64,000 nucleotides of DNA from assembly GCF_900110415.1 (NCBI RefSeq), contig NZ_FODR01000006.1, forward strand, positions 248,001-312,000. Reading direction: 5' to 3'. The notes under the pieces were generated by a model that was given only the letters and a program-made list of their open reading frames with translations, searched no databases and was not told where the DNA came from. Source of the DNA: Mucilaginibacter sp. OK283 (GTDB taxonomy: Bacteria > Bacteroidota > Bacteroidia > Sphingobacteriales > Sphingobacteriaceae). A program made the translations under genes and the position numbers. This document shows positions 26,015-54,385 of the stretch, piece after piece; within the stretch, counting starts at the first letter, position 1, and every line of letters begins with the position of its first letter.

Positions 26015-26908
26015 ATGATTAAAAAGCTACTTACCATTCTTTTAATTTCAATTACCGGTTTATCCTATGCCCAAAACAAAATTGTAGTTTTCCAATCCGA
26101 TTTTGGCGTAAAAGATGGCGCTGTCTCGGCCATGAAGGGCGTTGCTACCGGTGTTTCTGCCGATTTAAAACTTTATGATCTCACACACGAGATTCCTGCT
26201 TATAACATCTGGGAAGCATCATACCGTCTCTATCAAACTGTAAATTACTGGCCTGCAGGTACGGTATTTGTTTCGGTAGTGGATCCTGGGGTAGGTACCG
26301 CCCGTAAATCTGTTGTGCTCAAGACCAGAACGGGCCAATATATTGTTACGCCTGATAATGGCACATTAACGTTGATAGCTGAATCGCTGGGAATAGCCGA
26401 AATCAGGCAGATTGATGAGTCCCGCAATCGTCGTAAAGGGTCCGAAAAATCATACACTTTTCATGGCCGCGACGTATATGCCTACACCGCCGCACGCCTC
26501 GCGGCCGGTGTTATTACCTATGAGCAGGTAGGGCCCGAACTGCCTAAACAAGTGGTGAAAATTCCGTATCAAAAAGCAATATTGGAAGGCGGAACCCTGA
26601 AAGGTACCATTGATATCCTTGATATTCAATATGGCAACCTGTGGACAAATATAGGCGATGACTTGGTAAAACAACTGAACGTTAAAGTAGGAGATACCCT
26701 CCACCTGGTAATTTACCAAAATGGCGAAAAGAAATTTGAGGGTGATGCCCCATACAGCGATACCTTTGGCGAGGTAGCGAAAGGCAAGCCCCTGGCTTAT
26801 ATGAATAGCCTGATGCAATTATCTTTTGCCTTAAACCAGGGCAGTTTTGCCGACATTTATAAAATAGGCAGCGGAAGCGACTGGAGCGTGGTAGTGAGCA
26901 AGAAGTAG
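26015..26908 (+). CDS. Exported SAM hydroxide adenosyltransferase (DUF62 / SAM hydrolase)
   Basis: A 297-residue member of the fluorinase/chlorinase-like DUF62 family, whose common bacterial members split S-adenosylmethionine to adenosine and methionine using water. Family motifs are all present: VFQSDFGVKDGAVSAMKG, VVDPGVGTARKSVV, TPDNGTLT and the C-terminal YSDTFGEVAKGKPLAYMNS. Unusually, it begins with a clear Sec signal peptide (MIKKLLTILLISITGLSYAQ), placing it in the periplasm, where SAM is not expected. The start is well supported because no later ATG precedes the core. A hairpin terminator follows at 26961-27006. Confidence 0.88.
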   Translation: MIKKLLTILLISITGLSYAQNKIVVFQSDFGVKDGAVSAMKGVATGVSADLKLYDLTHEIPAYNIWEASYRLYQTVNYWPAGTVFVSVVDPGVGTARKSVVLKTRTGQYIVTPDNGTLTLIAESLGIAEIRQIDESRNRRKGSEKSYTFHGRDVYAYTAARLAAGVITYEQVGPELPKQVVKIPYQKAILEGGTLKGTIDILDIQYGNLWTNIGDDLVKQLNVKVGDTLHLVIYQNGEKKFEGDAPYSDTFGEVAKGKPLAYMNSLMQLSFALNQGSFADIYKIGSGSDWSVVVSKK

Positions 26909-27007: not shown

Positions 27008-27105
27008 CCACTGACCACTGACCACTGACCACTGACCACTGACCACTGACCACTGACCACTGACCACTGACCACTGACCACTGACCACTGACCACTGACC
27101 ACTAC
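27008..27105. repeat. Tandem heptamer array (CCACTGA)13
   Basis: Thirteen perfect CCACTGA units (27008-27098) and one partial unit that overlaps the TAG stop of the desaturase gene. The other side of the terminator hairpin (26909-26940, AGTGAGTGGTCAGTTGTGAGTGG) carries degenerate complementary units. There are no spacers, so this is not CRISPR. Confidence 0.92.
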
Positions 27106-28112
27106 GCCATCTCCCGGCTTCGCTTCATTTCTTCGGCCATTTTTATTCCTTGCTTTCTCACCTGTTCTGTTCGTACGTAACGTTTATCCGCGCCTAAATT
27201 GGGCTTGGTAATAAAATCATAAAACATTCGCGTCCAGGAGTGGGTCGAATCCAGGTGCTGGTAAAACTCTTTGGTAATTTTATAATACTTAGGCAAAAAA
27301 CGGCCCGGTATGTTCATAATATCGTGGTGTTCATTATGGTAGCCTACATTAAAACAAACCCAGTTGAGCCAGCCATAGTACGAATTGGTTTCCTGTCCTT
27401 CTTCAAATATAAAATGCTCATGAATAAAATGCCCGGCTGCGGGATGCAGGCTGAATCCCCATAAGGTGGATAGGAAGAGGTAGATAATGGCAATTTTCCC
27501 TAAAAACACAAATATCAATACATCGGTAATAATCAGCGTAACGATGTTGGCCCATTCCCATTTGGTTGGCCTGGTATCAAATCCCCTTACCAAAAACAGG
27601 AAGAATATGTAAAAAAACAGCCAGATGAATTTCCGGATCCCCGATTTGCCTACCATTTTCACTTCCCAATGGCTCGGGAAATCATTATCAACATGCTCGA
27701 TGCCCAGGTGGGAGTGATGCTTCATATGGTGTGTACGAAAGGCGATAGCGCCCGGCACCAAAACCGGGATATTGGCAAATATGGCCAGTGCCTTATTTTG
27801 TGCAGGCGTTTTCAGCATCAGGTTATGTGCCATTTCGTGTACGGCCATGGCCGACCAATGGTTCATCGTGCCGCCCACCACGTATGATAGCAGGATAATT
27901 TGCCACCAATATGTTCCAAACGAAGGAAACCATATACTAACACCCCATGCAAAACTAATTTGCCCTGACACAATAAAAAAGGTAAGCACTGCCGCCCAGG
28001 GATCGTAGCCCATTAATTGTTTTACTTCCGGGTGTTTTTTTAATACTTCTATCCGGCGCAAAAAATGTATATCCGGCGTTTCAATTGGTTCAAAAGGAGT
28101 ATCGGTTTTCAT
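27102..28112 (-). CDS. Fatty-acid desaturase-superfamily protein, sphingolipid delta-4-desaturase-like
   Basis: A 336-residue polytopic membrane di-iron enzyme. The three histidine boxes are HEMAH (92-96), HHMKHH (128-133) and HNEHH (259-263). The tail (GYHNEHHDIMNIPGRFLPKYYKITKEFYQHLDSTHSW) closely matches eukaryotic dihydroceramide desaturase (DEGS1) in order and spacing. If it acts on sphinganine-based lipids it would introduce the 4,5-double bond; this fits a bacterial group known to make sphingolipids, but the substrate is inference. No serine palmitoyltransferase is nearby. The stop codon lies in a CCACTGA repeat. Confidence 0.85.
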   Translation of the reverse strand: MKTDTPFEPIETPDIHFLRRIEVLKKHPEVKQLMGYDPWAAVLTFFIVSGQISFAWGVSIWFPSFGTYWWQIILLSYVVGGTMNHWSAMAVHEMAHNLMLKTPAQNKALAIFANIPVLVPGAIAFRTHHMKHHSHLGIEHVDNDFPSHWEVKMVGKSGIRKFIWLFFYIFFLFLVRGFDTRPTKWEWANIVTLIITDVLIFVFLGKIAIIYLFLSTLWGFSLHPAAGHFIHEHFIFEEGQETNSYYGWLNWVCFNVGYHNEHHDIMNIPGRFLPKYYKITKEFYQHLDSTHSWTRMFYDFITKPNLGADKRYVRTEQVRKQGIKMAEEMKRSREMA

Positions 28113-29116: not shown

Positions 29117-30793
29117 TTGAAACACGTTTTTAAGGGAATTCTTTCGCTGCTTAGCGTAACCGAAAAAAACAGGTTGTACAGGCTTATCCTGCTCGATCTG
29201 CTTATCAGCGTACTGGATATTGCCTTTTTAGGGGCATTGCTTATCATCATAGGGCTTTATACCTCGGGCACGCCTGTTCAACATCATTTATTACAGCTTA
29301 ACTGGCTTAAACAGCAATCTATACTGCCAATCGGTTTATTTATGCTGCTGTATTGCGGCAAAAACTGGCTGGGCTACCTGATTACCCGATTTCAGCATCA
29401 TTTTTTTTACGGAGTAGCGTCGCGATTGTCGAAAAGGAATATCCTTCACTACCTGAAAGATGATTATATCAAATTTATTAATGTCGATTCATCTGTACAC
29501 ATCCGCCAGGTAAGTCAGCAGCCTATCGAATTTAGCCATTACATCCTCAATAATGTACAGCAAATTATATCGCAAAGCCTGCTCATTTCATTTACCATCG
29601 GCGCTATATTGATTTACCAGCCATTGCTGTTTTTTTTATTGCTGCTGGTGCTGTTACCGCCCATAATTATCCTGGCGTATTTTATCAAACGGAAATCGAA
29701 ACAGGTGCGCGAACAAACAAAAATAACGAGCGAAAAAAGTATCCAGTATCTACAGGAGTCGTTAGCCGGGTTTATAGAAGGAAACATTTATGATAAGCGC
29801 ACTTTCCTGGCCGATAGGTACGCAGGTTACCAGGAGCAGCTTAATAACAATATTGCGGCCCAACAAACGTTGCAGGGGCTGCCTGCAAGATTGGTAGAGA
29901 TTTTTGCCATTTTTGGTTTTTTTATCCTGGTGCTGGTTAACAAATGGGCGGCACGTGGGGCAGTGGTTGATGTGCTTACTATTGGCGTTTTTATTACAGC
30001 TGCCTACAAAATCATCCCCGGTATTATCAAAATCCTGAACAGTATGGGGCAAATAAAAACCTATGAATTTACCCTGAATGATTTACTTGCTGTAAAAGAA
30101 CCCGACGCGTTGCAAAAAGCAGGCACACTTAATATTGTTGAACCCATTGGCTCTATCCGTTTTCACAACGTCTGTTTTAGTTATGTAGACCAACCGGTAG
30201 TGGCCGGCATTAGCTTCGATGTTTACGCAGGCGATTTTGTTGGCTTATCGGCAGCCTCGGGCAGTGGCAAAACAACCATCATTAATTTATTGCTTGGTTT
30301 TTTGACGCCTCAGTCGGGTTATATTTATATAGATGGGAAACAAACTGATACCCATAAAAGACAGCAGTACTGGAAAAAAATAGCTTATGTAAAACAACAG
30401 AACTATTTTATTCACGATACCATCCTTAAAAACATTACGCTTACTGATGATCAGGAATATGATACCGCGAAACTGGAGGAGGCCATATCCTTTTGCGGAC
30501 TTGCCCCCTTGCTAGCCGGCTATCCCGAAGGCATAAATAAAATAGTGCGCGAAAATGGCAAAAACCTGAGCGGCGGACAAAGGCAACGCATAGCCCTGGC
30601 AAGGGCCTTGTACCACGATTTTGATGTGCTGATCATGGACGAACCGTTTGGCGAAATGGACCAACAGGCAGAGGAGGCTATACTTACCCAACTAAAGCAG
30701 TTAACAGCCCAGGGCAAGATCATATTTTTTATAACACACAACATTGCAAGCCTGAGCCATTGCAACAAAATAATCCCTTTAATAAATGAGTAA
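29117..30793 (+). CDS. ABC exporter (permease fused to ATPase), glycan or lipid flippase type
   Basis: A 558-residue half-transporter: six membrane helices (about 20-300) followed by an ATPase with Walker A SAASGSGKTT, signature LSGGQRQRIALARAL, Walker B VLIMDEPFGEMD and H-loop ITHN. The start codon is TTG, with no in-frame ATG for over 70 codons and an in-frame stop upstream inside the palindrome. It overlaps the following GT4 gene by 8 bases, so it probably exports or flips a lipid-linked glycan made by that enzyme (inference), in the manner of PglK or MsbA-like transporters. Confidence 0.88.
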   Translation: MKHVFKGILSLLSVTEKNRLYRLILLDLLISVLDIAFLGALLIIIGLYTSGTPVQHHLLQLNWLKQQSILPIGLFMLLYCGKNWLGYLITRFQHHFFYGVASRLSKRNILHYLKDDYIKFINVDSSVHIRQVSQQPIEFSHYILNNVQQIISQSLLISFTIGAILIYQPLLFFLLLLVLLPPIIILAYFIKRKSKQVREQTKITSEKSIQYLQESLAGFIEGNIYDKRTFLADRYAGYQEQLNNNIAAQQTLQGLPARLVEIFAIFGFFILVLVNKWAARGAVVDVLTIGVFITAAYKIIPGIIKILNSMGQIKTYEFTLNDLLAVKEPDALQKAGTLNIVEPIGSIRFHNVCFSYVDQPVVAGISFDVYAGDFVGLSAASGSGKTTIINLLLGFLTPQSGYIYIDGKQTDTHKRQQYWKKIAYVKQQNYFIHDTILKNITLTDDQEYDTAKLEEAISFCGLAPLLAGYPEGINKIVRENGKNLSGGQRQRIALARALYHDFDVLIMDEPFGEMDQQAEEAILTQLKQLTAQGKIIFFITHNIASLSHCNKIIPLINE

Positions 30794-31841
30794 GCCTGAA
30801 GCATTGGTCATATTAACGCCGGGTTTCCCTGCCAACGTTAACGATACCATCTGGGTACCGCCTATGCAGGGTTTTGTCAGGACTTTAAAACAGCATAATC
30901 CAAACATGCATATCGTTGTTATCAGTTTTCAGTACCCTAATACAGCTTCAACATATAACTGGTGCGGAGTCGAAGTTATAGCCATTGCGGGCAGGGGCAG
31001 GGGGCAGGTATTCAGGTTAATAACCTGGCAACGGGTATGGCAAAACTTAAAAAAGCTTCATGCCAGTTACAAACTTATTGGTTTATTAAGCTTTTGGATG
31101 GGGGAGTGTTCCTTTATGGGCAACCGCTTTGCAAAAAAATACGGTTTGCCGCATTATGCATGGCTGCTCGGGCAGGATGCGAAAGCCGGTAATGATTATG
31201 TTAACAGGATAAAACCCGACGGCAGTTCAGTAATCGCGATATCAGATTTTGTGGCAAAAGAGTTCAGGTTAAATTATGGCATTCAACCGGCGCATGTTAT
31301 CCCTACAGGTATCGATGTAACGCTTTTTGGCGCCGGTGCAGCCCATCGCGACATCGATATTATGGGTGCAGGTTCGCTTATTCCGCTTAAGCAATATGAT
31401 CTTTTTGTAAAAGTGATCAAAAGCCTGGTTACCGAATTTCCGGGATTAAAAACGGTGATATGTGGCAACGGCCCCGAAATGGATAATTTGAAAAAACAAA
31501 TAAGCAGGCTTGGGCTGGAGAATAACATCGAACTAAAAGGCGAGTTGCCACACCCGGAAGTATTGGCCATGATGCAACGTTCCAAAATATTTTTACATAC
31601 ATCACGCTATGAAGGTTACAGCACCGTTTTAAGCGAGGCTTTATACGCGGGCTGCCAGGTGTTGAGCCTGGTTAATGGAATGAATACAAGGCCATCTCAG
31701 CACCTCGTACCCGATAATGTCGAAGACTTACCGCTTATTATTAAAAAACTGTTAAACGATAAAGAATTAAAGCACGAACCTGTGCTAATTTACACCACCG
31801 AAACAATAGCGGCCCGCATTACCAGCTTATTTATCCATTAA
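30786..31841 (+). CDS. Glycosyltransferase family 4
   Basis: A 351-residue GT-B fold glycosyltransferase. The N-terminal domain begins EALVILTPGFPANVNDTIWVPP; the C-terminal nucleotide-sugar domain contains PTGIDVTLF, VICGNGPEMDNLK and the EX7E motif EGYSTVLSEAL. It overlaps the ABC exporter by 8 bases (translational coupling) and its 3' end overlaps the convergent GT4 gene by 15 bases. Donor and acceptor sugars are unknown. Confidence 0.88.
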   Translation: MSKPEALVILTPGFPANVNDTIWVPPMQGFVRTLKQHNPNMHIVVISFQYPNTASTYNWCGVEVIAIAGRGRGQVFRLITWQRVWQNLKKLHASYKLIGLLSFWMGECSFMGNRFAKKYGLPHYAWLLGQDAKAGNDYVNRIKPDGSSVIAISDFVAKEFRLNYGIQPAHVIPTGIDVTLFGAGAAHRDIDIMGAGSLIPLKQYDLFVKVIKSLVTEFPGLKTVICGNGPEMDNLKKQISRLGLENNIELKGELPHPEVLAMMQRSKIFLHTSRYEGYSTVLSEALYAGCQVLSLVNGMNTRPSQHLVPDNVEDLPLIIKKLLNDKELKHEPVLIYTTETIAARITSLFIH

Positions 31842-32939
31842 TTGATGACAAATATCAACCAGGTCGTCGGCTATGGTTTTAAAGCTTAGCCTTTGGGTAA
31901 AATGGCTTAAAACAGCTGCCGAGAGCTCTTGCAAATCTACCCCCTCAAGCCCCTTAAGGGTTTCGCCTAATGCCCCGGCATTCCCCGGTGGATATAAAAA
32001 TCCATATTGGCCATTTAAGGTGATTTTTTTATACGATGGGATGGTGGTAACAACAGGGATGCAGCCGCAGGCCATAGCTTCTAACAAGGCGTAGCCGCTG
32101 CCTTCTTTATGACTGCCCGATATATAATAATCTGCTGCGCTAAACCAGTAAGGCAAGTCGGTATTAGCTACCTGACCCACTAAAGTGACCGAATTTGATA
32201 GCAGGGCAGAAGATGTTATTAACTGCTTTATATCATTTAACAGTGCATCGGTTTGGTAAATCATGTACAACTTTGCAGCGGGATTAACGTGCAGGTAATC
32301 ATGAAAACCGTTCAAAACGGTTAAAGGGTCTTTATTTTTATTCAGGTGACCCACCCAAATGAAGTTTGCTTTACCGGCAATGCCGGTATGTTGTTTTGCC
32401 AGGGCTTTATCAATAGGTTTAAAAACGGTAGAAGCTTCTAATAATTCAAATATCCGGGCATCAGGTTTAATAATGTTCTTTTTTTTCCAGGCATCCGCAT
32501 TGCCGGCCGAAGTGAAAAGGAAGGCATCTGTCATATTGCAGGCTATCTTTTGCAGCCGGCCTTTTAAGCCATCCGAGGGTAATTCGCCATGATGCTGTAT
32601 AACCAGTTTGAACTTGTTGCCACAAAACAATTTTAAAAACATTACTTGTAAAGGGAATACCAGGCCTTGTACCAGCACAATATCAGGCTTTAATTTCCAG
32701 ATAAGAACATGGGTTTTTATAGTGAGAGACCAGAACCTGTTGCGGCCTTTAAAAAAATAATAGGGTACGCCGTTCATTACAATATCCTGTTCAAATGTTG
32801 TATGCTTTACGAAAGCAAAATCAAGCCTGTCCTTAAGGTATATAGCAAAGGTGAGCGCCGGGGCATGGTTTTCTGTTACCTGCTGCGGGCGGGTATAATT
32901 TAGATGGGAATAATAAACAAGATCGATCAGCTTTATCAA
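31827..32939 (-). CDS. Glycosyltransferase family 4
   Basis: A 370-residue GT-B enzyme. The acceptor-side domain includes VLVQGLVFPLQVMFLK and IQHHGELPSDG; the donor side has FIWVGHLNKNKDPLTVL and the EX7E motif EGSGYALLEAMACG. It is the last gene of the minus-strand block methyltransferase, amidohydrolase, GT4, with two bases between it and the amidohydrolase start, so it belongs to that unit and not to the convergent ABC/GT4 pair. Confidence 0.87.
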   Translation of the reverse strand: MIKLIDLVYYSHLNYTRPQQVTENHAPALTFAIYLKDRLDFAFVKHTTFEQDIVMNGVPYYFFKGRNRFWSLTIKTHVLIWKLKPDIVLVQGLVFPLQVMFLKLFCGNKFKLVIQHHGELPSDGLKGRLQKIACNMTDAFLFTSAGNADAWKKKNIIKPDARIFELLEASTVFKPIDKALAKQHTGIAGKANFIWVGHLNKNKDPLTVLNGFHDYLHVNPAAKLYMIYQTDALLNDIKQLITSSALLSNSVTLVGQVANTDLPYWFSAADYYISGSHKEGSGYALLEAMACGCIPVVTTIPSYKKITLNGQYGFLYPPGNAGALGETLKGLEGVDLQELSAAVLSHFTQRLSFKTIADDLVDICHQLMDK

Positions 32940-32941
32940 TT

Positions 32942-34111
32942 TCAGATAATTTGATGTTGTATAAAGGTAACCGGGAAAACAACACCTGGCAAATACGATT
33001 GAATGGAGGCCATCAACTCCCCGATATTTCCTTCGACATATTTATAGGACTCACCCACCTTTATCAAACTGAACGATTTTCCTTTTAATGCACCGGCCAG
33101 CACAGGCAACAGTTCCTGGTCAAACAACCTGATGTTCCCTTTCTGGATCACTATTTGGATGTTTGTTGGCCGTGTAGCAAAAAAGGCGTCATAACGGCCA
33201 GCGCCATGGTTTGCTTTCGCGATAACCAGGTCGGCCTGCCTGCTGGCAGCAATTTCGCCGGTATTAATTGCCCATGTTTTTGCTGCAGTTTTATTGAGCG
33301 ATTGGTATAGTTCCTCGTCGGTAAGCATCCCTATGCTACGGGCCATACTAACGTGGTCCCACATATTCCAGTTACCTGTAAGGGTGGAATCTGACCCGAA
33401 AAGAATATCAGCAAACGCTTTTAGTTTATGTATATCTGCCGTTTTGTTCAATAGGTAAAAGTTCGATTCGGGGCACCAAACAATGGCCTTAAAATAAGGG
33501 GCCTGTTCTTTGCTCATAGCTACAGCGTGAACGCCAACCAAAGCACGTCCTAATTTATTCCAGCTAATCAGTTCATCTATTTCGCGGGTGGCCAGTTCAT
33601 CTGTCCCTTCACCCGTATGGATAACTACCGGTAGTTTGCGTTTTAATGGATTGTTGAGCCTAAGCTTCCAAAATTTTTCGAGCGCTGCGGAGTGCAGGTC
33701 ATGCGTTTCCTCAAATATGTTAATCAGGGCATTATCAACATGTACTTGTTGCCCGTGATTTACAACGGTAGTAACGCCGCACAGTAAATTTTTATAGATT
33801 CCCCAAAGTATACGCTGGTGTCGGGGGATATTGAGCACCGCAGCAATTTCGGCTTTAAACTCCTGGTGAATATGTGCTCCCCATTCAATATAGTTATTAT
33901 AAATGTGATTGCCCAGTTGCGGGAAGAGGTCAAAATCAAGATGATCGTGCGAGTTAATCAGGCCGGGTAAAATGATGGAGTTTTCAAAATACAGCGATAG
34001 CTGATCATCGGCGTTTATCATCGATAAACTAACCTGATCAATCTTTTCGCCTTCAATTTTGATATCAACTGCCCGCCCGCCATCAGCCGGTTTTACATTC
34101 CTCAGTATCAT
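32942..34111 (-). CDS. Amidohydrolase-superfamily protein
   Basis: A 389-residue metal hydrolase of the chlorohydrolase/cytosine-deaminase-like branch. A small beta-sandwich at the start (MILRNVKPADGGRAVDIKIEGEKI) precedes the barrel with metal ligands HDH in LPGLINSHDHLDFD, His in VIHTGEG, His in LVGVHAVA and Asp in FGSDSTLTG. These enzymes deaminate, deamidate or dehalogenate small rings. Finding one directly next to a methyltransferase and GT4 in a glycan region is odd; a deaminated or deacetylated small-molecule precursor is one possibility. There is no gap to the methyltransferase upstream. Confidence 0.85.
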   Translation of the reverse strand: MILRNVKPADGGRAVDIKIEGEKIDQVSLSMINADDQLSLYFENSIILPGLINSHDHLDFDLFPQLGNHIYNNYIEWGAHIHQEFKAEIAAVLNIPRHQRILWGIYKNLLCGVTTVVNHGQQVHVDNALINIFEETHDLHSAALEKFWKLRLNNPLKRKLPVVIHTGEGTDELATREIDELISWNKLGRALVGVHAVAMSKEQAPYFKAIVWCPESNFYLLNKTADIHKLKAFADILFGSDSTLTGNWNMWDHVSMARSIGMLTDEELYQSLNKTAAKTWAINTGEIAASRQADLVIAKANHGAGRYDAFFATRPTNIQIVIQKGNIRLFDQELLPVLAGALKGKSFSLIKVGESYKYVEGNIGELMASIQSYLPGVVFPVTFIQHQII

Positions 34112-34849
34112 TTACGCTCTTTTTAAATAAATGCCATAAATAACCGGGAAGCCAACGTATTTTTCGTAAACATGCAGGGCGTTGGCATCGGCGTAAAATT
34201 GTTTCATGGTTTCATCAATTTTTATTTCCTGCTGTGTTATCAGGTTAAAACCATCGTTTGATAGCGCTTGCTTTATGGTAAATATAGGATGTAAATAGTT
34301 ACGCACTGCTATTAATGCATTACCATGTTTAAAGGTACGCTTACCGCCAAGTGCCAGCATATGCGGGTGAAAATCGGTGATGATGATTTCGCCACCCGGT
34401 TTAAGCAAACGGCACCAGGCATGCAGGGCTTCGTCTATATCTTCAATATGGGCAACGGTAAGTGTTGACACTATCATATCGAAAGAAGCATCCGGGATAT
34501 CAGAAAATAAATTATCGGCAATTTTTAAGGTACTTGCCTTCGGATATTTTTCTTTTAATTTTTTTAACATTCCGGCCGATACATCAAAGCCTGTTAGCGC
34601 AGCCGGCTGTTTATTAAATATAGCGGGCCATTGCCTGCCGGTACCACAGCCTATATCAGCTATAAATTTGCCTTTCAGCTCCAATCCTTCCAACAGGCCT
34701 TTAAAAAGTTTTTCGTCAAGGTGCAGCATTAAGTTGCCCGGCTGCATATCGTGGTCAGAAGCCCACAGGTCGTAAGCCTCTATAACGCCTTTTTCGGTTA
34801 CAGGGGGGGCTATTTTGCTTTTTATATAGTTTTTGGCGGTTGCCAGCAT
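34112..34849 (-). CDS. Class I SAM-dependent methyltransferase
   Basis: A 245-residue cytoplasmic methyltransferase (UbiE/Methyltransf_11 type): motif I FIADIGCGTGRQWPAI (about 75-90), acidic residue after strand 2 in LTGFDVSAGM, post I DNLFSDIPDASFDMIVSTLTVAHI and the LKPGGEIIITDFHPHM strand. The substrate is unknown. First gene of the minus-strand unit, with its stop adjoining the amidohydrolase start. A divergent unit on the plus strand begins 270 bases away. Confidence 0.88.
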   Translation of the reverse strand: MLATAKNYIKSKIAPPVTEKGVIEAYDLWASDHDMQPGNLMLHLDEKLFKGLLEGLELKGKFIADIGCGTGRQWPAIFNKQPAALTGFDVSAGMLKKLKEKYPKASTLKIADNLFSDIPDASFDMIVSTLTVAHIEDIDEALHAWCRLLKPGGEIIITDFHPHMLALGGKRTFKHGNALIAVRNYLHPIFTIKQALSNDGFNLITQQEIKIDETMKQFYADANALHVYEKYVGFPVIYGIYLKRA

Positions 34850-35031
34850 CGCGCGCGTTTTTATAACAATAACGGATACCGGGGCTTTAGGGTTGCCCCG
34901 CCCTTTTTATTTTGCCACAGGCAACCCCGGCAGTTTGGCTGTCGTAATATATGATGAATGGTTTAATTATCGATCTGGGTTGGCAGTGGTGGGAGTGAAG
35001 CCCGTCGCTGCTGTTTAACTGCGAATGCTAC
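34850..35031. other. Divergent promoter region of the methyltransferase block
   Basis: No confident gene. GGGTTGCC (34890-34897) and GGCAACCC (34920-34927) form an 8-bp dyad within a longer CCGGGG...CCCCGG context, a possible operator or small hairpin between the two divergent units. A small ORF starts at 35032. Confidence 0.4.
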
Positions 35032-35115
35032 ATGAATAAGATATTACTTTATAGCCCTAAAAGCACCGATGCCAGGCGTCGCGTACAAAACTATATTTTA
35101 AACTTAGCCCAATAA
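35032..35115 (+). CDS. Small ORF (27 residues) before the second methyltransferase
   Basis: An ATG-to-TAA frame beginning MNKILLYSPKSTDARRR, ending three bases before the TTG start of the methyltransferase. The opening KILLYSPKS resembles the first strand of B12-binding radical SAM proteins or glycosyltransferases, so it may be the remnant of a decayed gene; it could also be a leader peptide. Confidence 0.35.
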   Translation: MNKILLYSPKSTDARRRVQNYILNLAQ

Positions 35116-35118
35116 CAA

Positions 35119-35865
35119 TTGAACCCCGAAAGAAACGATATTGCCATAAACCAGAGTCCGATAGCTAATGATGCATTTGAGGCCATGTACGTTGCTGTGC
35201 GCGATAAAGAAGGCAGGCTGTATAGCGATAAACAAGTAACGCGCCTGCCGGATGTTGATTCCGGTCACCGGTATTATAAAGAATGGAAAATGAGAAAGCA
35301 TTCTGCCGAACAGCTAATCGCTTTCCTTAAAAAACAACGGGGCCCATTGGATATCCTGGAGGTTGGTTGCGGCAATGGCTGGCTTTCGGCTAAACTTGCT
35401 AACATCCCCAAAGCTAAAGTAACCGGGATAGACCCTAACAGGATAGAGATTGAGCAGGCCAATAGGGTTTTTAAAAAAAGGAACCTTAAATTTATCCATG
35501 CCCCGTTCAGCGGCACTGCGTTTAACGAAGGAATTAAATTTGACGTGATTATTTTTGCCGCATCCATCCAATACTTTCCATCGCTTAAGGAAGTTATGAA
35601 TAATGCATTTGGTTTGCTGACCTCCACCGGGCGGGTACATGTACTCGATACCCATTTTTATCATTCGGGTGAAGTTGAAACAGCAGCCGAAAGGAGTAAG
35701 GATTATTTTACATCAATAGGTTTTCCGGAAATGGCGCAGTATTATTTTCATCATCCTTTAAAACAGGTAATGCATCTTAAGCACAAGGTAATGTTTAATC
35801 CTACTGCGTTTTTTAATAAGATATTCAAAAAAAGTGTTTTTTACTGGATAAAAATAAAATCCTGA
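35119..35865 (+). CDS. Class I SAM-dependent methyltransferase
   Basis: A 248-residue methyltransferase with a TTG start; an in-frame stop lies immediately upstream (35113-35115). The next ATG (Met23, 35185) would cut into the region EAMYVAVRDKEGRLYSD, which looks like a genuine N-terminal domain, so TTG is kept. Motif I is ILEVGCGNGWLSAKL (about 79-93), followed by VTGIDPNRIEIEQA and FDVIIFAASIQYF. The C-terminus is basic and amphipathic (FFNKIFKKSVFYWIKIKS), perhaps membrane associated. First enzyme of the plus-strand unit leading to the radical SAM enzyme. Confidence 0.85.
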   Translation: MNPERNDIAINQSPIANDAFEAMYVAVRDKEGRLYSDKQVTRLPDVDSGHRYYKEWKMRKHSAEQLIAFLKKQRGPLDILEVGCGNGWLSAKLANIPKAKVTGIDPNRIEIEQANRVFKKRNLKFIHAPFSGTAFNEGIKFDVIIFAASIQYFPSLKEVMNNAFGLLTSTGRVHVLDTHFYHSGEVETAAERSKDYFTSIGFPEMAQYYFHHPLKQVMHLKHKVMFNPTAFFNKIFKKSVFYWIKIKS

Positions 35866-35868
35866 CTA

Positions 35869-35982
35869 ATGAACAGCCAAAGTGTATTACAAACTTTTAA
35901 GGGTAATGAAAATCAAAAGCAGCTTACCAAAGTAAAACTTGTTTGCTCGCTTAACCTGTCGCCATTAACCCGTCTATCTTAA
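35869..35982 (+). CDS. Small ORF (37 residues) between methyltransferase and radical SAM genes
   Basis: An ATG starts 3 bases after the methyltransferase stop and the TAA ends 4 bases before the radical SAM ATG, so the frame fills the gap exactly. The peptide begins MNSQSVLQTFKGNENQKQ and ends CSLNLSPLTRLS, with a charged first half and a short Ser/Leu/Cys-containing tail. The fit is what a true coupled small gene or a modified-peptide precursor would show, but chance cannot be excluded. Confidence 0.4.
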   Translation: MNSQSVLQTFKGNENQKQLTKVKLVCSLNLSPLTRLS

Positions 35983-35986
35983 TTTT

Positions 35987-37459
35987 ATGGACCAGCTAAA
36001 TAATATATTGTTCACTCATTCCTACTTTTTACGGTTCGATCCCAAGCAATGGGCAATAGGGCAGCCGTACGCACCGCTGGGTACACTATATGCCGCATCC
36101 AATATGCGGATGCATGGTTATAACGTATCTTTTTTTGATAACATGTTTTCGTATACGGCGCATGATGTTGTGCCCGCCATAGCGCAAAATAAACCCGGTT
36201 TTTTTGTGATTTACGATGATGGGTTTAACTATCTCACCAAAATGTGCCTCACCAATATGCGCGAGGCCGCGTTTAAAATGTGCAAGCTGGCCAAAAAGTA
36301 TGGTTGCACCGTAATTGTCTCCAGTTCCGACTCGACAGACCGTTATAAAGAATATTTGAACGAAGGCGCCGATTTTGTAATCATAGGCGAGGCTGAACAA
36401 ACGCTGTTGGAACTTACCAACGCCATCAAAAGCGGTATTGAAGATATTGCGCAAATACAGGGACTTGCTTATATCAAAAATAACATCCCCTTTAAAACCA
36501 TCGCAAGGCCGGTATTGAAAGATCTGGATACCTTGCCACTGCCCGCCTGGGATTTGATTGATATTACCCCTTACCGCGAAAGCTGGCTTAAACATGCGGG
36601 ATATTTCTCGATGAACGTTGGTACTACCCGCGGCTGCCCTTTTAAATGCAACTGGTGCGCTAAACCGATTTATGGCAACCGCTATAATTCGCGCAGTGCC
36701 GAAAATGTGATTGCCGAGCTTAAGCTTTTAAAAACCATGTTCAACATGGACCATATTTGGTTTTGCGACGACATTTTTGGATTGAAACCCGGCTGGGTAA
36801 AACAGTTTGCCCAACTGGTAAAAAAGGAGGGGCTGAAGTTCAGGTACAAGCTCCAATCACGGGCAGATTTGTTGCTGGACGATGAAGATGTGGCTGCGCT
36901 GGCTGCATCCGGCTGCGAAAATGTATGGATAGGCGCCGAGAGCGGTTCGCAAAAGATACTGGACGCGATGGATAAAGGCACCAGTATTGAACAGATAGCG
37001 ACAGCCACAAAACTGATGAAAAAGCATGGCATCAGGCCATCCTTCTTTATTCAGTTTGGCTACCCCGGCGAAACAAAAGATGATATCGCCCTTACTATCA
37101 ATATGATCAATAACCTGTTGCCCCATGAAATCGGGATATCTGTATCGTACCCATTGCCAGGGACTTTATTTTATGAAAAAGTAAAAGCCGACCTGCGCCA
37201 AAAAACAAACTGGACAGACTCCGACGAGATGGCGCTGATGTTTAGCAACACGTTTAGCGCTGCGTATTATAAGCAGCTGCATCGCTACGTGCATCAAAAT
37301 TACCATGCCCACCTGGCCAAAAACAGCCTGGTAAAACTCCTGAAAAATCCATTTAAACCCAGTTTAAAACGTATCAGGAAGGCCGCGTCGTTTATTTACC
37401 ATGCCCCGGCAACTTTGATAGAAGGGTTTAAACTTCAAAAACTGGAAAACACCGTATGA
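35987..37459 (+). CDS. B12-binding-domain radical SAM protein
   Basis: A 490-residue enzyme. The N-terminal Rossmann domain (1-150) has the layout of cobalamin-binding class B radical SAM proteins (PLGTLYAASNMRMHGYNVSFFDN ... GADFVIIGEAEQTLLEL). The radical SAM core carries Cys217, Cys221 and Cys224 (TTRGCPFKCNWCAKP) and the VWIGAESGSQKIL and FFIQFGYPGET strands. Class B enzymes do C- or P-methylation or ring rearrangements; the substrate is unknown. It is flanked by two class I methyltransferases, overlapping the second by 4 bases. Confidence 0.9.
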   Translation: MDQLNNILFTHSYFLRFDPKQWAIGQPYAPLGTLYAASNMRMHGYNVSFFDNMFSYTAHDVVPAIAQNKPGFFVIYDDGFNYLTKMCLTNMREAAFKMCKLAKKYGCTVIVSSSDSTDRYKEYLNEGADFVIIGEAEQTLLELTNAIKSGIEDIAQIQGLAYIKNNIPFKTIARPVLKDLDTLPLPAWDLIDITPYRESWLKHAGYFSMNVGTTRGCPFKCNWCAKPIYGNRYNSRSAENVIAELKLLKTMFNMDHIWFCDDIFGLKPGWVKQFAQLVKKEGLKFRYKLQSRADLLLDDEDVAALAASGCENVWIGAESGSQKILDAMDKGTSIEQIATATKLMKKHGIRPSFFIQFGYPGETKDDIALTINMINNLLPHEIGISVSYPLPGTLFYEKVKADLRQKTNWTDSDEMALMFSNTFSAAYYKQLHRYVHQNYHAHLAKNSLVKLLKNPFKPSLKRIRKAASFIYHAPATLIEGFKLQKLENTV

Positions 37460-38304
37460 GCCAAATCAGCTTTGTAAATAATGAAGCAAGCGCATCAGAT
37501 GCCTTTAGCAGGCAATCTGCGGTATTTGACGAAATTTATTCGGGCAATACCATTATCAATTACAAAAGGGCAAGGGTAAGGGAACATGTACTTCAATATT
37601 TAAAACCGGAGGGCAGTATACTCGAATTGAACAGCGGGACAGGGGAGGATGCCATTTTTTTTGCCCAACAAGGGCATTATGTTCATGCTACAGATATATC
37701 AACAGGGATGCAACACGAGCTTCGGCAAAAAGCAATGCCCTATAAAAACCGTATAAGCACCGAAATTTGCTCATTTACCCAACTGGATCAATTAAAACAA
37801 AGAGGCCCGTATGATCATATATTTTCCAACTTTGGCGGCCTGAACTGTACCGGTGAGCTGGAAAAAGTTTTGTTATCATTCGATAGTCTTTTAAAACCCG
37901 GCGGTAAGGTAACGTTAGTTATCATATCGCCATTTTGCCTGTGGGAAACATTGCTTGTTTTTAAAGGACGGTTCAAAACCGCGTTCCGGCGATTTTTTAG
38001 CAGCAAAGGGAGATCTGCCCATATTGAAGGTGCTTACTTTAAGTGTTTTTATTATAAGCCATCATTCATTATCAATACTTTACAAAAGTCATTTAAAGTA
38101 TTAGGTATTGAAGGCCTGTGTACAATAGTGCCACCATCATACATAGAGGGTTTTGCCGAAAAGCACCCTAAAGCATATAAATTCCTGAGCAGCAAAGAAG
38201 ACCGGCTAAAAAGCGCCTGGCCCTGGAAGTATATCGGCGATTACTTTATTATTTCGCTGGAGAAAAACAGCACACACGAATTTCACGAATTTACATCGGT
38301 TTAA
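37456..38304 (+). CDS. Class I SAM-dependent methyltransferase with repeat-encoded C-terminus
   Basis: A 282-residue methyltransferase overlapping the radical SAM gene by 4 bases. Motif I is degenerate (SILELNSGTGEDAIFF), followed by VHATDISTGM and YDHIFSNFGGLNC; the LLKPGGKVTLVII strand is intact. The long C-terminal half is rich in Phe/Tyr and Lys. The final residues, THEFHEFTSV, are encoded by a CACGAATTT repeat whose complementary arm lies 230 bases downstream, so the original stop was probably displaced. The substrate is unknown. Confidence 0.83.
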   Translation: MSQISFVNNEASASDAFSRQSAVFDEIYSGNTIINYKRARVREHVLQYLKPEGSILELNSGTGEDAIFFAQQGHYVHATDISTGMQHELRQKAMPYKNRISTEICSFTQLDQLKQRGPYDHIFSNFGGLNCTGELEKVLLSFDSLLKPGGKVTLVIISPFCLWETLLVFKGRFKTAFRRFFSSKGRSAHIEGAYFKCFYYKPSFIINTLQKSFKVLGIEGLCTIVPPSYIEGFAEKHPKAYKFLSSKEDRLKSAWPWKYIGDYFIISLEKNSTHEFHEFTSV

Positions 38305-38541: not shown

Positions 38542-38561
38542 CTCTAAATTGGTGTTTATCC

Positions 38562-39475: not shown

Positions 39476-40438
39476 TCAATGGGCTACACTATGCTGGTTT
39501 TCGGCAAGCAATTGTATTATTTTATTTTGAAAGCGCCTAATCAGGTTCGACTGAAAATTTCCCGGATCGGGTTTGGCACAATGTTTACCGGTAACTATGG
39601 CCAGTAATACGCCATGATCATTAAGCTTCTTTTGCCTGGTTTTCTCACTCCACCTGCGCGATGTTATATTCATAAAGCCATCATCCAGTAAATCGCCCAG
39701 CTTATTGTTAAGTAAAAATTCAGCCAGGCTTTTTAACCAATTATTTTTTAGCGACTTAGCTGTTGATACCCGCATAATATGATTAGGCAGGTATTTGCGC
39801 GTCCAAACGTTGGCTGCAAAAAAATCAGCAAAAGTAGTGTCGCCCTGGATGGGTATCAGGGTAACTACTTCTGTAGCGGTATATATATTTTTTTCGGCTA
39901 TTTCAAGCGCTTGTTCATCTACATAATAGTTCATGCAAAAGCAATGTTGCTTATTTACCAGGAAGGTTAGCTTCTTAAAAAAATGCATCAGGGTACGCGC
40001 TACCCAAAGGCGATTTGCCGCAGTAATTATAAACAGGTCGATATCTGATCGGTCGTCGGCATAATTTTTAGATAGTGAGCCCGAAATAGCGATACCCCGC
40101 ACGTAAGGGAAATTAATAAGTAAGCTGCCAACCTTGCGTGCTGTATTAATCATTTCAATAGCCTTTTGGTTTCCTTTGTTACGGCGCTGCGCCAGGTATT
40201 GATCGTTTTTTAAACAGTAAAACTTATCAAAACGGTATACCATCCGGGTTTCTATCAAGCAGGTCATGGCGTCGTCAAAAGTCTTGCGTTCATATTTTAC
40301 CTGCAAAAACAAACATATCTCTTCGCGCGTAAGCGGGTAATTAAACACATCAAAGTAGGCCAGCGTAGTTAATATGTTCTTTTTAATTTCTGACACAGTA
40401 TTGATGCTTGGTTGATTAAAAACGGACCTGATCTGCAT
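39476..40438 (-). CDS. Nucleotidyltransferase-domain protein of a surface-glycan locus
   Basis: A 320-residue protein with a minimal nucleotidyltransferase core, IAISGSLSKNYADDRSDIDLFIIT (about 115-138), giving the GS...DxD pattern of pol-beta-type transferases. The N-terminal region ILTTLAYFDVFNYPLTREEICLFLQ is a winged-helix-like segment. Similar proteins occur in Bacteroidota polysaccharide loci, but their reaction is not established. It is separated from the O-antigen-ligase-like gene upstream by a heptamer repeat element. Confidence 0.75.
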   Translation of the reverse strand: MQIRSVFNQPSINTVSEIKKNILTTLAYFDVFNYPLTREEICLFLQVKYERKTFDDAMTCLIETRMVYRFDKFYCLKNDQYLAQRRNKGNQKAIEMINTARKVGSLLINFPYVRGIAISGSLSKNYADDRSDIDLFIITAANRLWVARTLMHFFKKLTFLVNKQHCFCMNYYVDEQALEIAEKNIYTATEVVTLIPIQGDTTFADFFAANVWTRKYLPNHIMRVSTAKSLKNNWLKSLAEFLLNNKLGDLLDDGFMNITSRRWSEKTRQKKLNDHGVLLAIVTGKHCAKPDPGNFQSNLIRRFQNKIIQLLAENQHSVAH

Positions 40439-40562: not shown

Positions 40563-41879
40563 TTAGTATGACGTAAGTGCTAAACTGTTGGTTGCCACTT
40601 CATCTAAATATTCCGGGCTTTTATTTTTGACGATTTCTTCAGGCTTCACTTCGCCGCCGGAAAACAACAGCAAGGCAAAAAACAAGCTGTAAAACATAAC
40701 ACCCTTATCGGCATCCAGCACATTTTCTGAAAGCGAAACAATGGCAATCAGTAGCATAAAGCTGATAAATACCACGTCCTTTTTTAGGATAGCGGTTTTA
40801 AAACCGTATGCCAGCGTTATCAAATAAACAAGCAGCCCCCAAATGCCCGATTTTACCAGGAAGCTGAGGTATTGGTTGTGCGAATTCAAGTTGGCTAAAA
40901 ATGAGTCGTACATTTTAGCCTTAAAAAATTCATCGTGTAACAATTTCTGCTCAGAACCGGAGCCATGACCAATTAAAGGCTTCTGCTTAATAAGTTGGGC
41001 TACCACGTGCCAGCGGGCCAGGCGCGAGTCGGTACTCTCGCCGGGTTTAAATGCCGAAAAATCATCTGTCAAACTGGTTAAGTAACGTTCTTTGAATGAG
41101 GACACATTTAAAATTGTTGCAAAAGCCAACGCCGATATTGCTGCGCCGGCCATTATAAACTTCAGCCTGCTTTTACCCTTAAGCAGGCAATACGGGAGTA
41201 CCAGGTTAATAATTATAAATAAAATCGCCAGAATTGATTTTGAACTTAGCTGGATAAGTCCGCATAACAATATGAAGCTGCAAATACCGCAAATTAATTT
41301 TACAGGCAATGTTAGCGGTTTAAACAATAGCGTTAACAGGTATACCAATGCTACCACCAACTGTAATGAAAAAAAAGTGGCATGTATATCAAGCGGCTCC
41401 GAGAAATTATGATTGGTAAATGCCGGCGAAAAAATGGTTTTAAGCGGCAGATGATAATATTTAATGGTGATAAGGGCATCAATATATAGGTAGATGATGG
41501 TTGCCGTACACACAATGGCAAAAGCAAATAAAAAATTAGCCCGATATTTTTTTAAGTCGAGGCCGTTTAATAAAAATACTGGCGGCAAAATCAGAATGGG
41601 TAAGCGCAATACCCATTCGTTAAACGCTTCGGAACGGTAAAGGGAGTAAATCGTGGCAACAAGCGTAACAAAAAAAACAGATTGCAGTACTACAGTTTTT
41701 AATGTGAGCATAATCCTTAGCTTTTCCTTTTGCAAATGGATAAACGTATGCACAATAAAACTAATGAGTATAATATGGCTGTAAAACCTGTCAAACGGCA
41801 GGCTTGCCATAAGTAACATGATGTGGTAATAACTTACCTTATTAGCGTTATTATCATTTATCAGCAATAATTGCTTCAT
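40563..41879 (-). CDS. O-antigen ligase / Wzy-like polytopic membrane protein
   Basis: A 438-residue protein with about ten to twelve membrane helices and a large loop bearing the Wzy_C-type motif TDSRLARWHVVAQLIKQKPLIGHGSGSEQKLL followed by NSHNQYLSFLVKSGIWGLL, characteristic of O-antigen ligases and polymerases. It would join or polymerise glycan repeat units on the periplasmic side. The start MKQLLLIN is chosen over an upstream ATG; it overlaps the end of the upstream glycosyltransferase by 26 bases. Confidence 0.85.
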   Translation of the reverse strand: MKQLLLINDNNANKVSYYHIMLLMASLPFDRFYSHIILISFIVHTFIHLQKEKLRIMLTLKTVVLQSVFFVTLVATIYSLYRSEAFNEWVLRLPILILPPVFLLNGLDLKKYRANFLFAFAIVCTATIIYLYIDALITIKYYHLPLKTIFSPAFTNHNFSEPLDIHATFFSLQLVVALVYLLTLLFKPLTLPVKLICGICSFILLCGLIQLSSKSILAILFIIINLVLPYCLLKGKSRLKFIMAGAAISALAFATILNVSSFKERYLTSLTDDFSAFKPGESTDSRLARWHVVAQLIKQKPLIGHGSGSEQKLLHDEFFKAKMYDSFLANLNSHNQYLSFLVKSGIWGLLVYLITLAYGFKTAILKKDVVFISFMLLIAIVSLSENVLDADKGVMFYSLFFALLLFSGGEVKPEEIVKNKSPEYLDEVATNSLALTSY

Positions 41880-42984
41880 GGTTTTTGTGTTTATAGCTTT
41901 CGATAATAAACTCCTCGTATTGGTCAATTACCCGCTCCCAATTAAACTGGTACTGAATTTTATGCAGGTTATTCATTACCATATTTTTTTCGGGCGCTTT
42001 ACGCTGCACATTCTCTACCAGGTGGGTTACTTCGGTCGCATTTGAAAAATAAAAAGCATCCGTATTTAATACCGACTTATTAAAGGGGTTATTATGCGCC
42101 GCTATCAGGGCCTCGCTGGCCATCGCTTCTAACAAGGATGGATTGGTGCCTCCAACGCTATGCCCATGAAAATACAGGTAAGAGTTATTTTGCAACGAAC
42201 GTACCTTGGGCGTATCAAAAATGGCGCCTTTAAATTGAATGCGTTGGTCGTTGGCAAATTTATTGGTGATGAACTTGCCAAAACGATTGCTGGTATCGCC
42301 CAAAACTTTAAACTTTTTGCCCGAATTACTCCTGTTAAAACCTTCCAGGATGGCTTCGATGTTATTTTCGGGTTCCATGCGTGCCATCAGCAAAAAATAA
42401 TCCTCCTTTAGCGCTTCGCTTACATCATATTGCTCGCGCTCAAAATCGGTAAAAATATCTGCACCATAGGGGATGTATTTACTGTTGATGTTATACTTAT
42501 CCTTCAGATACGACTTTATCACCCTTGAATCGGCAACATAATAGTCGCTGTGTTTAACTGCCAGCTTTTCGGCATATTTTAAAAACTGCTGTACTGGTTT
42601 GGAGTATTTAGTCCGTTTCCACTCCATGCCGTCCATATTGGTAATAATGGTGCTGTGTTTAGGATAAAGCTGTCCCCAAACCGAACTGCTGGTATAGCCC
42701 ATAAGCATTACCACATCAAAATTTCGTTTACGGGCATCTAACAGGCAGTTCATGTCATAAACAAATTGCCCTGCGGTACCAACCAGGTACTCAGGATCAT
42801 AACAATGCCTTATTTCGACACCGTTCCAGCTATCCTGCTGATATGGATGATTGTGTGAGTTATAAACCGTTACCGAGTGGCCGCGCTTTACAAGGCCGGC
42901 CGATACATATTCCGAAATATGTTCAAACCCACCGTAGTAATTTGGTACACCCCTGGTCCCTAATATGGCTATGCGTAGTTTCAT
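41854..42984 (-). CDS. DUF1972-type glycosyltransferase (rhamnosyltransferase-like)
   Basis: A 376-residue GT-B enzyme. The N-terminus RIAILGTRGVPNYYGGFEHISEYVS is the DUF1972 signature found in bacterial rhamnosyl- and glucosyltransferases of exopolysaccharide loci. The C-terminal domain contains YYVADSRVIKSYL, PYGADIF, FLLMARMEPENNIEAILEGF and GGTNPSLLEAMA (EX7E-like region). One base separates it from the preceding GT4 gene. Confidence 0.9.
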   Translation of the reverse strand: MKLRIAILGTRGVPNYYGGFEHISEYVSAGLVKRGHSVTVYNSHNHPYQQDSWNGVEIRHCYDPEYLVGTAGQFVYDMNCLLDARKRNFDVVMLMGYTSSSVWGQLYPKHSTIITNMDGMEWKRTKYSKPVQQFLKYAEKLAVKHSDYYVADSRVIKSYLKDKYNINSKYIPYGADIFTDFEREQYDVSEALKEDYFLLMARMEPENNIEAILEGFNRSNSGKKFKVLGDTSNRFGKFITNKFANDQRIQFKGAIFDTPKVRSLQNNSYLYFHGHSVGGTNPSLLEAMASEALIAAHNNPFNKSVLNTDAFYFSNATEVTHLVENVQRKAPEKNMVMNNLHKIQYQFNWERVIDQYEEFIIESYKHKNHEAIIADK

Positions 42985-44056: not shown

Positions 44057-45021
44057 ATCGCAGCACCTCCTGATACTAATTTATGCAGCCAAATAATTAC
44101 TCGTTCCGGAAGGTAGCTAACAGTATACAGCAGGTAGTTATCTAACCTTAAGGGCGAGATGCTGATAGCCCTGGCCACATGAACGCGGGCCTTTTGTGGC
44201 TGAAAGTTATTAAGCAGTAGTTTTTTACCGCAAAGCGCATAATAAGAGCCTTGTTTTATTTTAGCCGAATATTGTTTTTCGCCTATTTCTGCCAGTAAAC
44301 TGCCTTCCCGTTTACTTATAGCGCGGTTTTTAAGCGTAGCATATTTGATATCCCTGAACTTACGGGGCCTCCATTTTTCATCAATGGTGATTGATTCGGG
44401 GTTTAGCCTTACTTTAATTAAGGGTAGGGCAAGGTTGCAGGCCTTTTGATCTTTTAAAATATTAACCCATAAAAAATGATCTTCAAAGCTATAGGCATGC
44501 TCATTATACCCCCCCTTGCTAATTACCATATCTTTTTTGTAAAAAACACAGGAGTGAATGAAAGGGCAAACCGAATATTTTAACTGCTGAATCTCGTCGT
44601 TATCAAAAGCCGGGGGCTTATGGGTAAACAAAAAGTGCCCCTCCATGTCAATATAGTCAGCAGCAGATCCAATTACGCTGTACTCTGGATTCGCTACCAT
44701 AAAATCATACTGCAGTTGCAGGCGTTCGGGGTAGCAAATATCATCGGCATCAAAGCGCGCTATATATGGCGCACGGGCATACTTCAGTCCGTTGTTAAGC
44801 GCACCGGCAATACCTTTGTTATCCTGGTAAATTACTACAATGCGCTGGTCGTCAAATGAACGGACAACGTCGATCGTATTGTCTGTCGATCCGTCATTTA
44901 TTATAAGTAATTCAAAATCCGCAAAAGTTTGTTCCAGTACCGATGTTATGGCATCGCCAATATATTTACCGGCGTTGTAGGCAGGCATCAATACCGTTAT
45001 TTGTGGGATGCTAAAGTTCAT
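44053..45021 (-). CDS. Glycosyltransferase family 2
   Basis: A 322-residue GT-A enzyme: ITVLMPAYNAGKYIGDAITSVLEQTFADFELLIINDGSTDNT at the N-terminus, the metal-binding DxD in ARFDADDICYPERL and the later EDHFLWVNI motif carrying the catalytic base. Donor unknown. A basic C-terminal tail may contact the membrane. It overlaps its neighbours by 4 and 11 bases. Confidence 0.92.
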   Translation of the reverse strand: MNFSIPQITVLMPAYNAGKYIGDAITSVLEQTFADFELLIINDGSTDNTIDVVRSFDDQRIVVIYQDNKGIAGALNNGLKYARAPYIARFDADDICYPERLQLQYDFMVANPEYSVIGSAADYIDMEGHFLFTHKPPAFDNDEIQQLKYSVCPFIHSCVFYKKDMVISKGGYNEHAYSFEDHFLWVNILKDQKACNLALPLIKVRLNPESITIDEKWRPRKFRDIKYATLKNRAISKREGSLLAEIGEKQYSAKIKQGSYYALCGKKLLLNNFQPQKARVHVARAISISPLRLDNYLLYTVSYLPERVIIWLHKLVSGGAAI

Positions 45022-53344: not shown

Positions 53345-54382
53345 TTAATAAAAATCATAACAGCGCCTTGCCCCTTCAAATTTATGATAGGTATCCACAC
53401 GGGAGGGCAAGGTGGTTTCATAACCGATACTTCCTTCGGTTGTGCCGCTGGTATTACTATAATTAAGGCCCGAAATTGGTGCATCATGGCTTACACCCAT
53501 CCGGAGTTTCTCTCCACTTTCTTTGTTTAAAAACAAGTCGAATATCAACGAGAACGTGATAGCAGATGGCCCGCCCGATCCGGCAGTACGCACCCATAAA
53601 CCAGCATTAAGGTTATGTCTTTTATACTGTAGCCCTATATTTATTGATTGCGCCGTTGATTGTTTATAAAAAACAACTGATGGAATAAAAAAAGATTTCT
53701 CGTCCTCATCAAGATTTTCATCCTTGTTAAGGTCCCATCTATAGCTTATATGTGCCGTGCCGCGCATAGGCAATTTTGCGGGCGTACCGGTAAATGATTC
53801 ATTGGGGCGGTTAATATGCTGCAATGCACCGCCAATATTAAAATCGCTTAAAGCAAGGTTTATACCCGCGCCTGAATCAAAGTAGAACCGGCTGTCGAAT
53901 CTTGGCGACTCGGCATTTGTTGGCGATCCGGGGATGTACCCTAAACGCGGGTCAATCTGGTCGCTGAAAATCAGTTTACCATAATCAACCGAGCGGTTGG
54001 TTACCCCTGCCTGCACGCCAAACGATAATACAAAATCATCGGAACCAACACTATAGGAATAAATGCCGGCTATATTGTTTTTTGTAAGCCCGGCGGTACC
54101 CTCATTGCCCCGGGTAAATATTAAACCAACCCCGCCGCCAAATTGCGGAATATTATAATCTACCGATGCTGTAAGATAGTTAAACCCGCCAGGCACCGAT
54201 GTAAATTGATTGCGATAAATAAGGTTCATCCGCAAATCGCCCTGGAATTGCCCGTTTAATGCAGGGTTAAGATACACGGGCGAATTAAAAAACTGAGAGT
54301 ACATATGATCCTGGGCAACCGCCACGCTAACAAACAACAGCATTAACAACCCTAAAACATATCCTTTAAGCAAAACGCGCAT
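53345..54382 (-). CDS. Type IX secretion system membrane protein, PorP/SprF family
   Basis: A 345-residue outer-membrane beta-barrel. A signal peptide (LLMLLFVSVAVAQD) leads into HMYSQFFNSPVYLNPALNGQFQGDLRMNLIYRNQF, the PorP/SprF opening. Alternating strands continue to a C-terminal aromatic end (RRCYDFY). SprF-type proteins help to secrete one partner adhesin, usually encoded next door; here that is the giant PKD protein, three bases upstream on the same strand. The pair fits one operon. Confidence 0.92.
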   Translation of the reverse strand: MRVLLKGYVLGLLMLLFVSVAVAQDHMYSQFFNSPVYLNPALNGQFQGDLRMNLIYRNQFTSVPGGFNYLTASVDYNIPQFGGGVGLIFTRGNEGTAGLTKNNIAGIYSYSVGSDDFVLSFGVQAGVTNRSVDYGKLIFSDQIDPRLGYIPGSPTNAESPRFDSRFYFDSGAGINLALSDFNIGGALQHINRPNESFTGTPAKLPMRGTAHISYRWDLNKDENLDEDEKSFFIPSVVFYKQSTAQSINIGLQYKRHNLNAGLWVRTAGSGGPSAITFSLIFDLFLNKESGEKLRMGVSHDAPISGLNYSNTSGTTEGSIGYETTLPSRVDTYHKFEGARRCYDFY

Positions 54383-54385
54383 TAT

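Follow-up and report, generated by a model that had tools for sequence, protein, structure and literature searches.

A radical SAM and methyltransferase cassette of Bacteroidota, probably tailoring a surface glycan, and its shortened copy in Mucilaginibacter sp. OK283

The window, i.e. the whole stretch of 64,000 nucleotides from Mucilaginibacter sp. OK283 analysed here, contains a block of two divergent gene groups, one coding for a glycosyltransferase (GT4b), an amidohydrolase (AMH) and a methyltransferase (MT1), the other for two further methyltransferases (MT2 and MT3) and a radical SAM enzyme (RSAMb), with glycan-related genes on both sides (Table 1). The six genes of a preliminary description of this DNA were all confirmed by the ORF map, the coordinates, families and tight spacings being in agreement—0 bases between MT1 and AMH, 2 bases between AMH and GT4b, and a 4-base overlap of RSAMb with MT3. 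None of the genes in the block reached a specific NCBIfam equivalog, and matches to sigma-70-type promoters showed no excess over shuffled sequence. The EamA gene at 38549 was considered as a part of the block and rejected, being recognised, besides the window, in the relative L031 only.

Table 1 Genes and other features of the block and its surroundings in the window
Feature	Position	Strand	Basis and remarks
ABC exporter, half transporter resembling PglK/MsbA; glycan gene associated with the block	29117..30793	+	Pfam ABC_tran; NCBIfam PglK/MsbA below cut-off; adjoins cassette in most genus loci
GT4a, glycosyltransferase; associated	30786..31841	+	Pfam Glycos_transf_1; conserved neighbour
GT4b, glycosyltransferase	31827..32939	-	Pfam Glycos_transf_1; position conserved
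AMH, amidohydrolase with predicted deaminase-type metal site	32942..34111	-	Pfam Amidohydro_1; H55-x-H57, H165-xx-E168, H195, D241
MT1, class I SAM methyltransferase	34112..34849	-	Pfam Methyltransf_11; adjoins AMH wherever intact
Divergent intergenic (promoter) region, 182 bp	34850..35031	no strand	ORF map and RSAMa remnant
RSAMa remnant, 27 codons (MNKILLYSPKSTDARRRVQNYILNLAQ, then stop), remainder deleted	35032..35115	+	tblastn and DNA comparison
MT2, class I SAM methyltransferase starting with TTG; optional, many relatives having lost it	35119..35865	+	
SPASM radical SAM deletion scar, in-frame 37-aa ORF	35869..35982	+	tblastn and DNA comparison
RSAMb, class-B radical SAM enzyme with predicted B12-type Rossmann domain; cassette core	35987..37459	+	Pfam Radical_SAM; CxxxCxxC at 217-224; fold match
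MT3, class I SAM methyltransferase; cassette core	37456..38304	+	
NTase, Pol-beta-type nucleotidyltransferase-like; core partner of RSAMb and MT3	39476..40438	-	Polbeta below cut-off; GSLSKNYAD...DID motif
Wzy/O-antigen-ligase-like polymerase; associated	40563..41927	-	Pfam Wzy_C; conserved neighbour

Two stretches among the plus-strand genes represent remnants of radical SAM genes found intact in relatives. The first one encodes the initial 27 residues of RSAMa (tblastn against the RSAMa N-terminus of relatives, E about 1e-8), followed by a stop 3 bases ahead of the conserved TTG start of MT2, the start kept also in L031. In the second one, the opening codons of SPASM are fused in frame to the last 20 or so of that gene (tblastn against the SPASM C-terminus, E about 5e-7), the cysteines of the SPASM tail being replaced by K and L, as seen from the DNA comparison with the intact genes. 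Both deletions leave the downstream starts untouched, the second one being in frame. The 270-base promoter region assumed previously between the divergent units thus holds an intergenic region of 182 bp, about a third of the supposed promoter being the RSAMa remnant, and the formerly noted small ORF, which does exist, is the scar of the deleted SPASM gene with its two ends joined. Elsewhere in the genome neither gene was found, the sole match of the RSAMa search being RSAMb itself. A misassembly can be dismissed as the reason why the two genes are missing, since the scar sequences have diverged from those of the intact genes and the genome contains neither gene at another place. Compared with the loci of the relatives, the block in the window is an abridged form of a conserved cassette that has lost two radical SAM genes, RSAMa and SPASM.

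The survey of AMH covered 61 genomes of Mucilaginibacter, 36 of which have the gene, and 39 genomes of the class belonging to other families, where it was not found; by AMH, the nearest named relatives are MAGs, one of Mucilaginibacter and one of Chitinophagaceae. The genome-wide contig scan for AMH yielded 3 loci only, including a Clostridium match that proved spurious. Both AMH and RSAMb were searched for in 37 genomes of the genus, which are related to each other and hence not independent; 21 possess both genes and 16 neither, this all-or-none pattern pointing to strong co-inheritance. Most of the about 35 AMH loci share the order ABC-GT4a / GT4b-AMH-MT1 / RSAMa-MT2-SPASM-RSAMb-MT3 / NTase-Wzy-GT, with the trio GT4b-AMH-MT1 on the strand opposite to the ABC exporter and GT4a. 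The co-occurrence in other genomes, put forward in the preliminary description as a check, was thus found, and since the arrangement is conserved in about 35 other genomes, it is not due to chance. The idea of co-expression holds as a prediction from the tight spacings. The view that the set stands apart from the flanking modules has to be abandoned: the ABC exporter, GT4a, GT4b, NTase and the Wzy-like polymerase occupy fixed places beside the block in most Mucilaginibacter loci and belong to the conserved unit.

Many of the genus loci contain, in addition, a polysaccharide deacetylase, a GNAT acetyltransferase and a 305-residue protein. In many relatives these three are positioned between GT4b and AMH; they are absent from the window. 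The 305-residue protein (e.g. L044:6461-7375, minus strand) has a Flavin_Reduct match at E 0.005, i.e. below the cut-off.

As far as the gene content is concerned, AMH, RSAMb and MT3 are kept in every locus with a long enough contig; losses of MT2 have occurred on many occasions among the relatives. The locus L058 is without MT1, RSAMa and SPASM, and L066 without MT2 and SPASM. In the RSAMb tree, the window clusters together with L031 and L034, both with the full set, while L058 is located elsewhere with good support; because of these separate positions, the losses in the window and in L058 are independent. Converged estimates of dN/dS for the retained genes lie at about 0.05-0.15, the values being rough because many synonymous distances are saturated; these genes evolve no faster than in the full-set relatives and remain under purifying selection.

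Concerning AMH, the residues H55-x-H57, H165-xx-E168, H195 and D241 are invariant in 15 sequences and align with the site of TM0936, the nearest PDB relative, and the protein is predicted to carry the metal and catalytic residues of the deaminase-type amidohydrolases. The pattern of HxH, HxxE, H and D is common to AMH and the cytosine/adenosine-deaminase-like amidohydrolases, such as TM0936 and aminofutalosine deaminase, from which AMH differs as a separate family with its own invariant motifs. Its stretch between HxH and H165 is shorter than in TM0936 and without alignment there, and its NCBIfam scores for aminofutalosine deaminase (45 bits, cut-off 320) and 5'-deoxyadenosine deaminase (24 bits, cut-off 522) do not assign it to either. 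In type, the NTase differs from the usual sugar-1-phosphate nucleotidylyltransferases; its structure model (pLDDT 47.7) was too poor and was left out of the analysis.

RSAMb matches Pfam Radical_SAM with 78 bits, the cysteines C217, C221 and C224 being invariant, and scores 25.7 bits against Pfam B12-binding, where the cut-off is 32.1. Its structure model, of moderate confidence (pLDDT 68.7), found as its best 12 solved matches OxsB, MgmA, CysS, TsrM, AprD4 and TokK, with Z 14-17 over most of the length, and an N-terminal B12-type Rossmann domain is thus predicted ahead of the radical SAM core, as in the class-B enzymes. The earlier label of a B12 radical SAM enzyme accordingly stands for the fold of that class, but not for the Pfam match. 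The PDB sequence nearest to RSAMb is that of AprD4 (E 1.5e-20), a radical SAM diol-dehydratase of the apramycin pathway acting on the aminosugar paromamine, with the same fold (Z 16.4); the two differ in gene context, and RSAMb scores 93.6 against the NCBIfam cut-off of 500. As AprD4 acts as a dehydratase and does not methylate, RSAMb with this fold may, but need not, use cobalamin and transfer methyl groups. The best NCBIfam model for both RSAMb (135 bits) and RSAMa (111 bits) is the hopanoid-associated radical SAM protein HpnJ; both stay far below the cut-off of this equivalog (TIGR03471, 577.6 bits), and no hopanoid genes were seen in the neighbourhoods. The PDB matches of the SPASM enzyme are SkfB and cytosylglucuronate decarboxylase.

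On the wider scale of Bacteroidota, the RSAMb profile search revealed orthologues (E 1e-90 or better) in 27 of 395 genomes (21/170 genera); AMH is rare in a draw of 395 genomes of the class (8 genomes, 5/196 genera). In 20 distant loci, RSAMb is accompanied by NTase in 19 and by MT3 in about 19, some of the latter being weak, as well as by RSAMa (10), AMH (6), MT2 (6), MT1 (5) and SPASM (4); NTase, RSAMb and MT3 thus emerge as an ancient triad recurring across Bacteroidota. The 102 non-core flanking proteins of the distant loci include, in raw counts, GT4 (15), GT87 (5), GT9 (5), GT2 (4), Wzy_C (3) and Bac_transf (2). One distant locus, L134, has all eight genes in a single operon in the order NTase, RSAMb, MT3, RSAMa, MT1, AMH, MT2 and SPASM; it is flanked by housekeeping genes with no glycan cluster, and genes named by eye as cytidine-deaminase-like, thymidine-kinase-like and nucleoside-transporter-like lie downstream. 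Its MT3 homologue (L134:10450-12153, plus strand) has a C-terminal domain weakly similar to GT29 sialyltransferases (Pfam E 3e-4, below the cut-off). A second radical SAM subfamily, RSAMc, sharing about 34% with RSAMb, was seen near RSAMb in several other families, mostly in loci without the RSAMa/AMH modules (L085:11674-13068, L084:10029-11417, L124, L127, L129 and L135). The plasmid search gave no orthologue, the best hits being 28% for RSAMb (Rhizobium acidisoli) and 27% for AMH (Massilia, in unrelated context). The search for such a cassette in the literature available without subscription brought nothing relevant. The genes thus occur together elsewhere and match no described pathway in the literature searched, so that the proposal of a candidate pathway is not overturned.

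Several other genes around the cluster deserve mention. The 554-aa protein at 45011-46675 (minus strand), without a Pfam match, is a member of an unknown family tied to the glycan cluster in which it lies, with counterparts in L058 (65%) and L117 (48%). A sphingolipid delta-4-desaturase-like fatty acid desaturase (27102-28112, minus strand; Pfam Lipid_DES above the cut-off) is found close to the cluster and adjoins it also in L031, L035 and L036. A SAM hydroxide adenosyltransferase, i.e. a SAM-hydrolysing enzyme (26015-26908, plus strand), is positioned a few kb from the SAM-rich cassette, probably by coincidence. Finally, a PorP/SprF-like gene beside a 1375-aa ORF (53345-58513, minus strand) is likely to represent a surface protein pair linked to type IX secretion.

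Based on the linkage to the exporter, glycosyltransferases and polymerase, together with the radical SAM relatives that act on sugars, the best reading is that this Bacteroidota cassette probably serves to make or modify an unusual sugar, or a group linked to a sugar, in a surface glycan. Genes for glycosyltransferases, a flippase or exporter and a polymerase, as expected for a surface-glycan cluster, are indeed in conserved linkage with it. The class-B radical SAM enzymes would perform C-methylation, deoxygenation or ring remodelling of a saccharide, the class I methyltransferases would add O- or N-methyl groups, and AMH would hydrolyse a C-N bond at its mononuclear deaminase-type site; GT4a and GT4b would assemble the chain, the ABC exporter would flip it, and the Wzy-like protein would polymerise or ligate it, the sugar substrate and the order of steps being what we infer. 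With RSAMa and the SPASM enzyme gone, the window strain may make a simpler product. The glycan decoration suggested in the preliminary description near the ABC exporter and GT4 is thus probably right, given the genus-wide linkage to glycan genes; a lipid or peptide product, suggested there as an alternative, may be conceived, with nothing found in its favour. Several points speak against the glycan reading: the likeness of the radical SAM enzymes and methyltransferases is at the superfamily level and names no substrate, AMH resembles enzymes deaminating heteroaromatic rings, which fits poorly to a sugar, the NTase type is unlike that usual for activating sugars as 1-phosphates, and the complete operon of L134 sits among housekeeping genes.

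According to the main rival, the cassette would produce a small molecule of its own, nucleoside- or aminoglycoside-like, with AMH deaminating a heteroaromatic base, the NTase adenylylating or transferring a nucleotide and the radical SAM enzymes remodelling the sugar, while the glycan genes would be mere neighbours or the source of an exporter. TM0936, of the cytosine/adenosine-deaminase type, as the closest solved relative of AMH, cytosylglucuronate decarboxylase among the matches of the SPASM enzyme, the likeness of RSAMb to AprD4 and OxsB, and the nucleoside-type genes (named by eye) after the L134 operon, with its non-glycan flanks, are all consistent with it. We nevertheless consider it unlikely, since all these matches are superfamily-level and far under the equivalog cut-offs, neither a resistance gene nor a scaffold synthase was seen, the genus-wide linkage is to flippase, glycosyltransferase and polymerase genes, and glycosyltransferases occur in most of the distant loci.

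The deaminase-type site of AMH, which is complete, and its relatedness to TM0936 would also suit a clean-up role, in which AMH takes no step in the pathway and removes the amino group from S-adenosylhomocysteine or 5'-deoxyadenosine released by the SAM-consuming enzymes of the cassette, the more so as AMH adjoins MT1 in a cassette with six SAM-using enzymes. The score against the 5'-deoxyadenosine deaminase model, the shorter, unaligned segment behind HxH and the retention of AMH despite the loss of radical SAM genes in the window and L058 make this rather improbable. It could be proposed, too, that the block of the window strain is decaying and its product no longer made, the deletions being the first steps of loss, as 2 of the 8 genes are deleted and L058 is also without MT1; with the retained ORFs all intact, low dN/dS, rates not elevated over the full-set relatives, and both deletions sparing the downstream starts, the second in frame, this has very little probability.

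Returning to the glycan-tailoring reading, a further step, which is only tentatively suggested, would be an undescribed Bacteroidota pathway that unites three radical SAM enzymes and three methyltransferases with a Pol-beta-type NTase and a deaminase-type hydrolase to form a surface sugar or sugar-like unit of a new class, the strains lacking RSAMa and SPASM making a simpler variant; such a unit may be a C-branched, ring-remodelled or nucleoside-like residue. If true, a patchy but widespread Bacteroidota cassette would bring to surface glycans a radical chemistry so far known mainly from antibiotics and cofactors, and the natural series of gene losses—the window, L058, L066 and the many loci without MT2—would be ready for the assignment of enzymes to chemical groups.

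With regard to known systems, the surroundings of the block share GT4 and GT2 glycosyltransferases, a flippase or ABC exporter and a Wzy-like polymerase with the Wzx/Wzy- and PglK-type glycan clusters of Bacteroidota; to our knowledge, the standard clusters of these types lack such a set of three radical SAM enzymes together with three methyltransferases and a hydrolase of the deaminase type. A precedent for joint action on one saccharide is gentamicin, tailored by the cobalamin radical SAM C-methylase GenD1 and the N-methyltransferase GenN (PMC4340712). The likeness lies in the pairing of a class-B radical SAM enzyme with a class I methyltransferase, which in gentamicin serve a single saccharide; gentamicin is, however, a secreted antibiotic of actinomycetes, with no orthology shown, whereas the cassette of the window is tied to surface-glycan genes.
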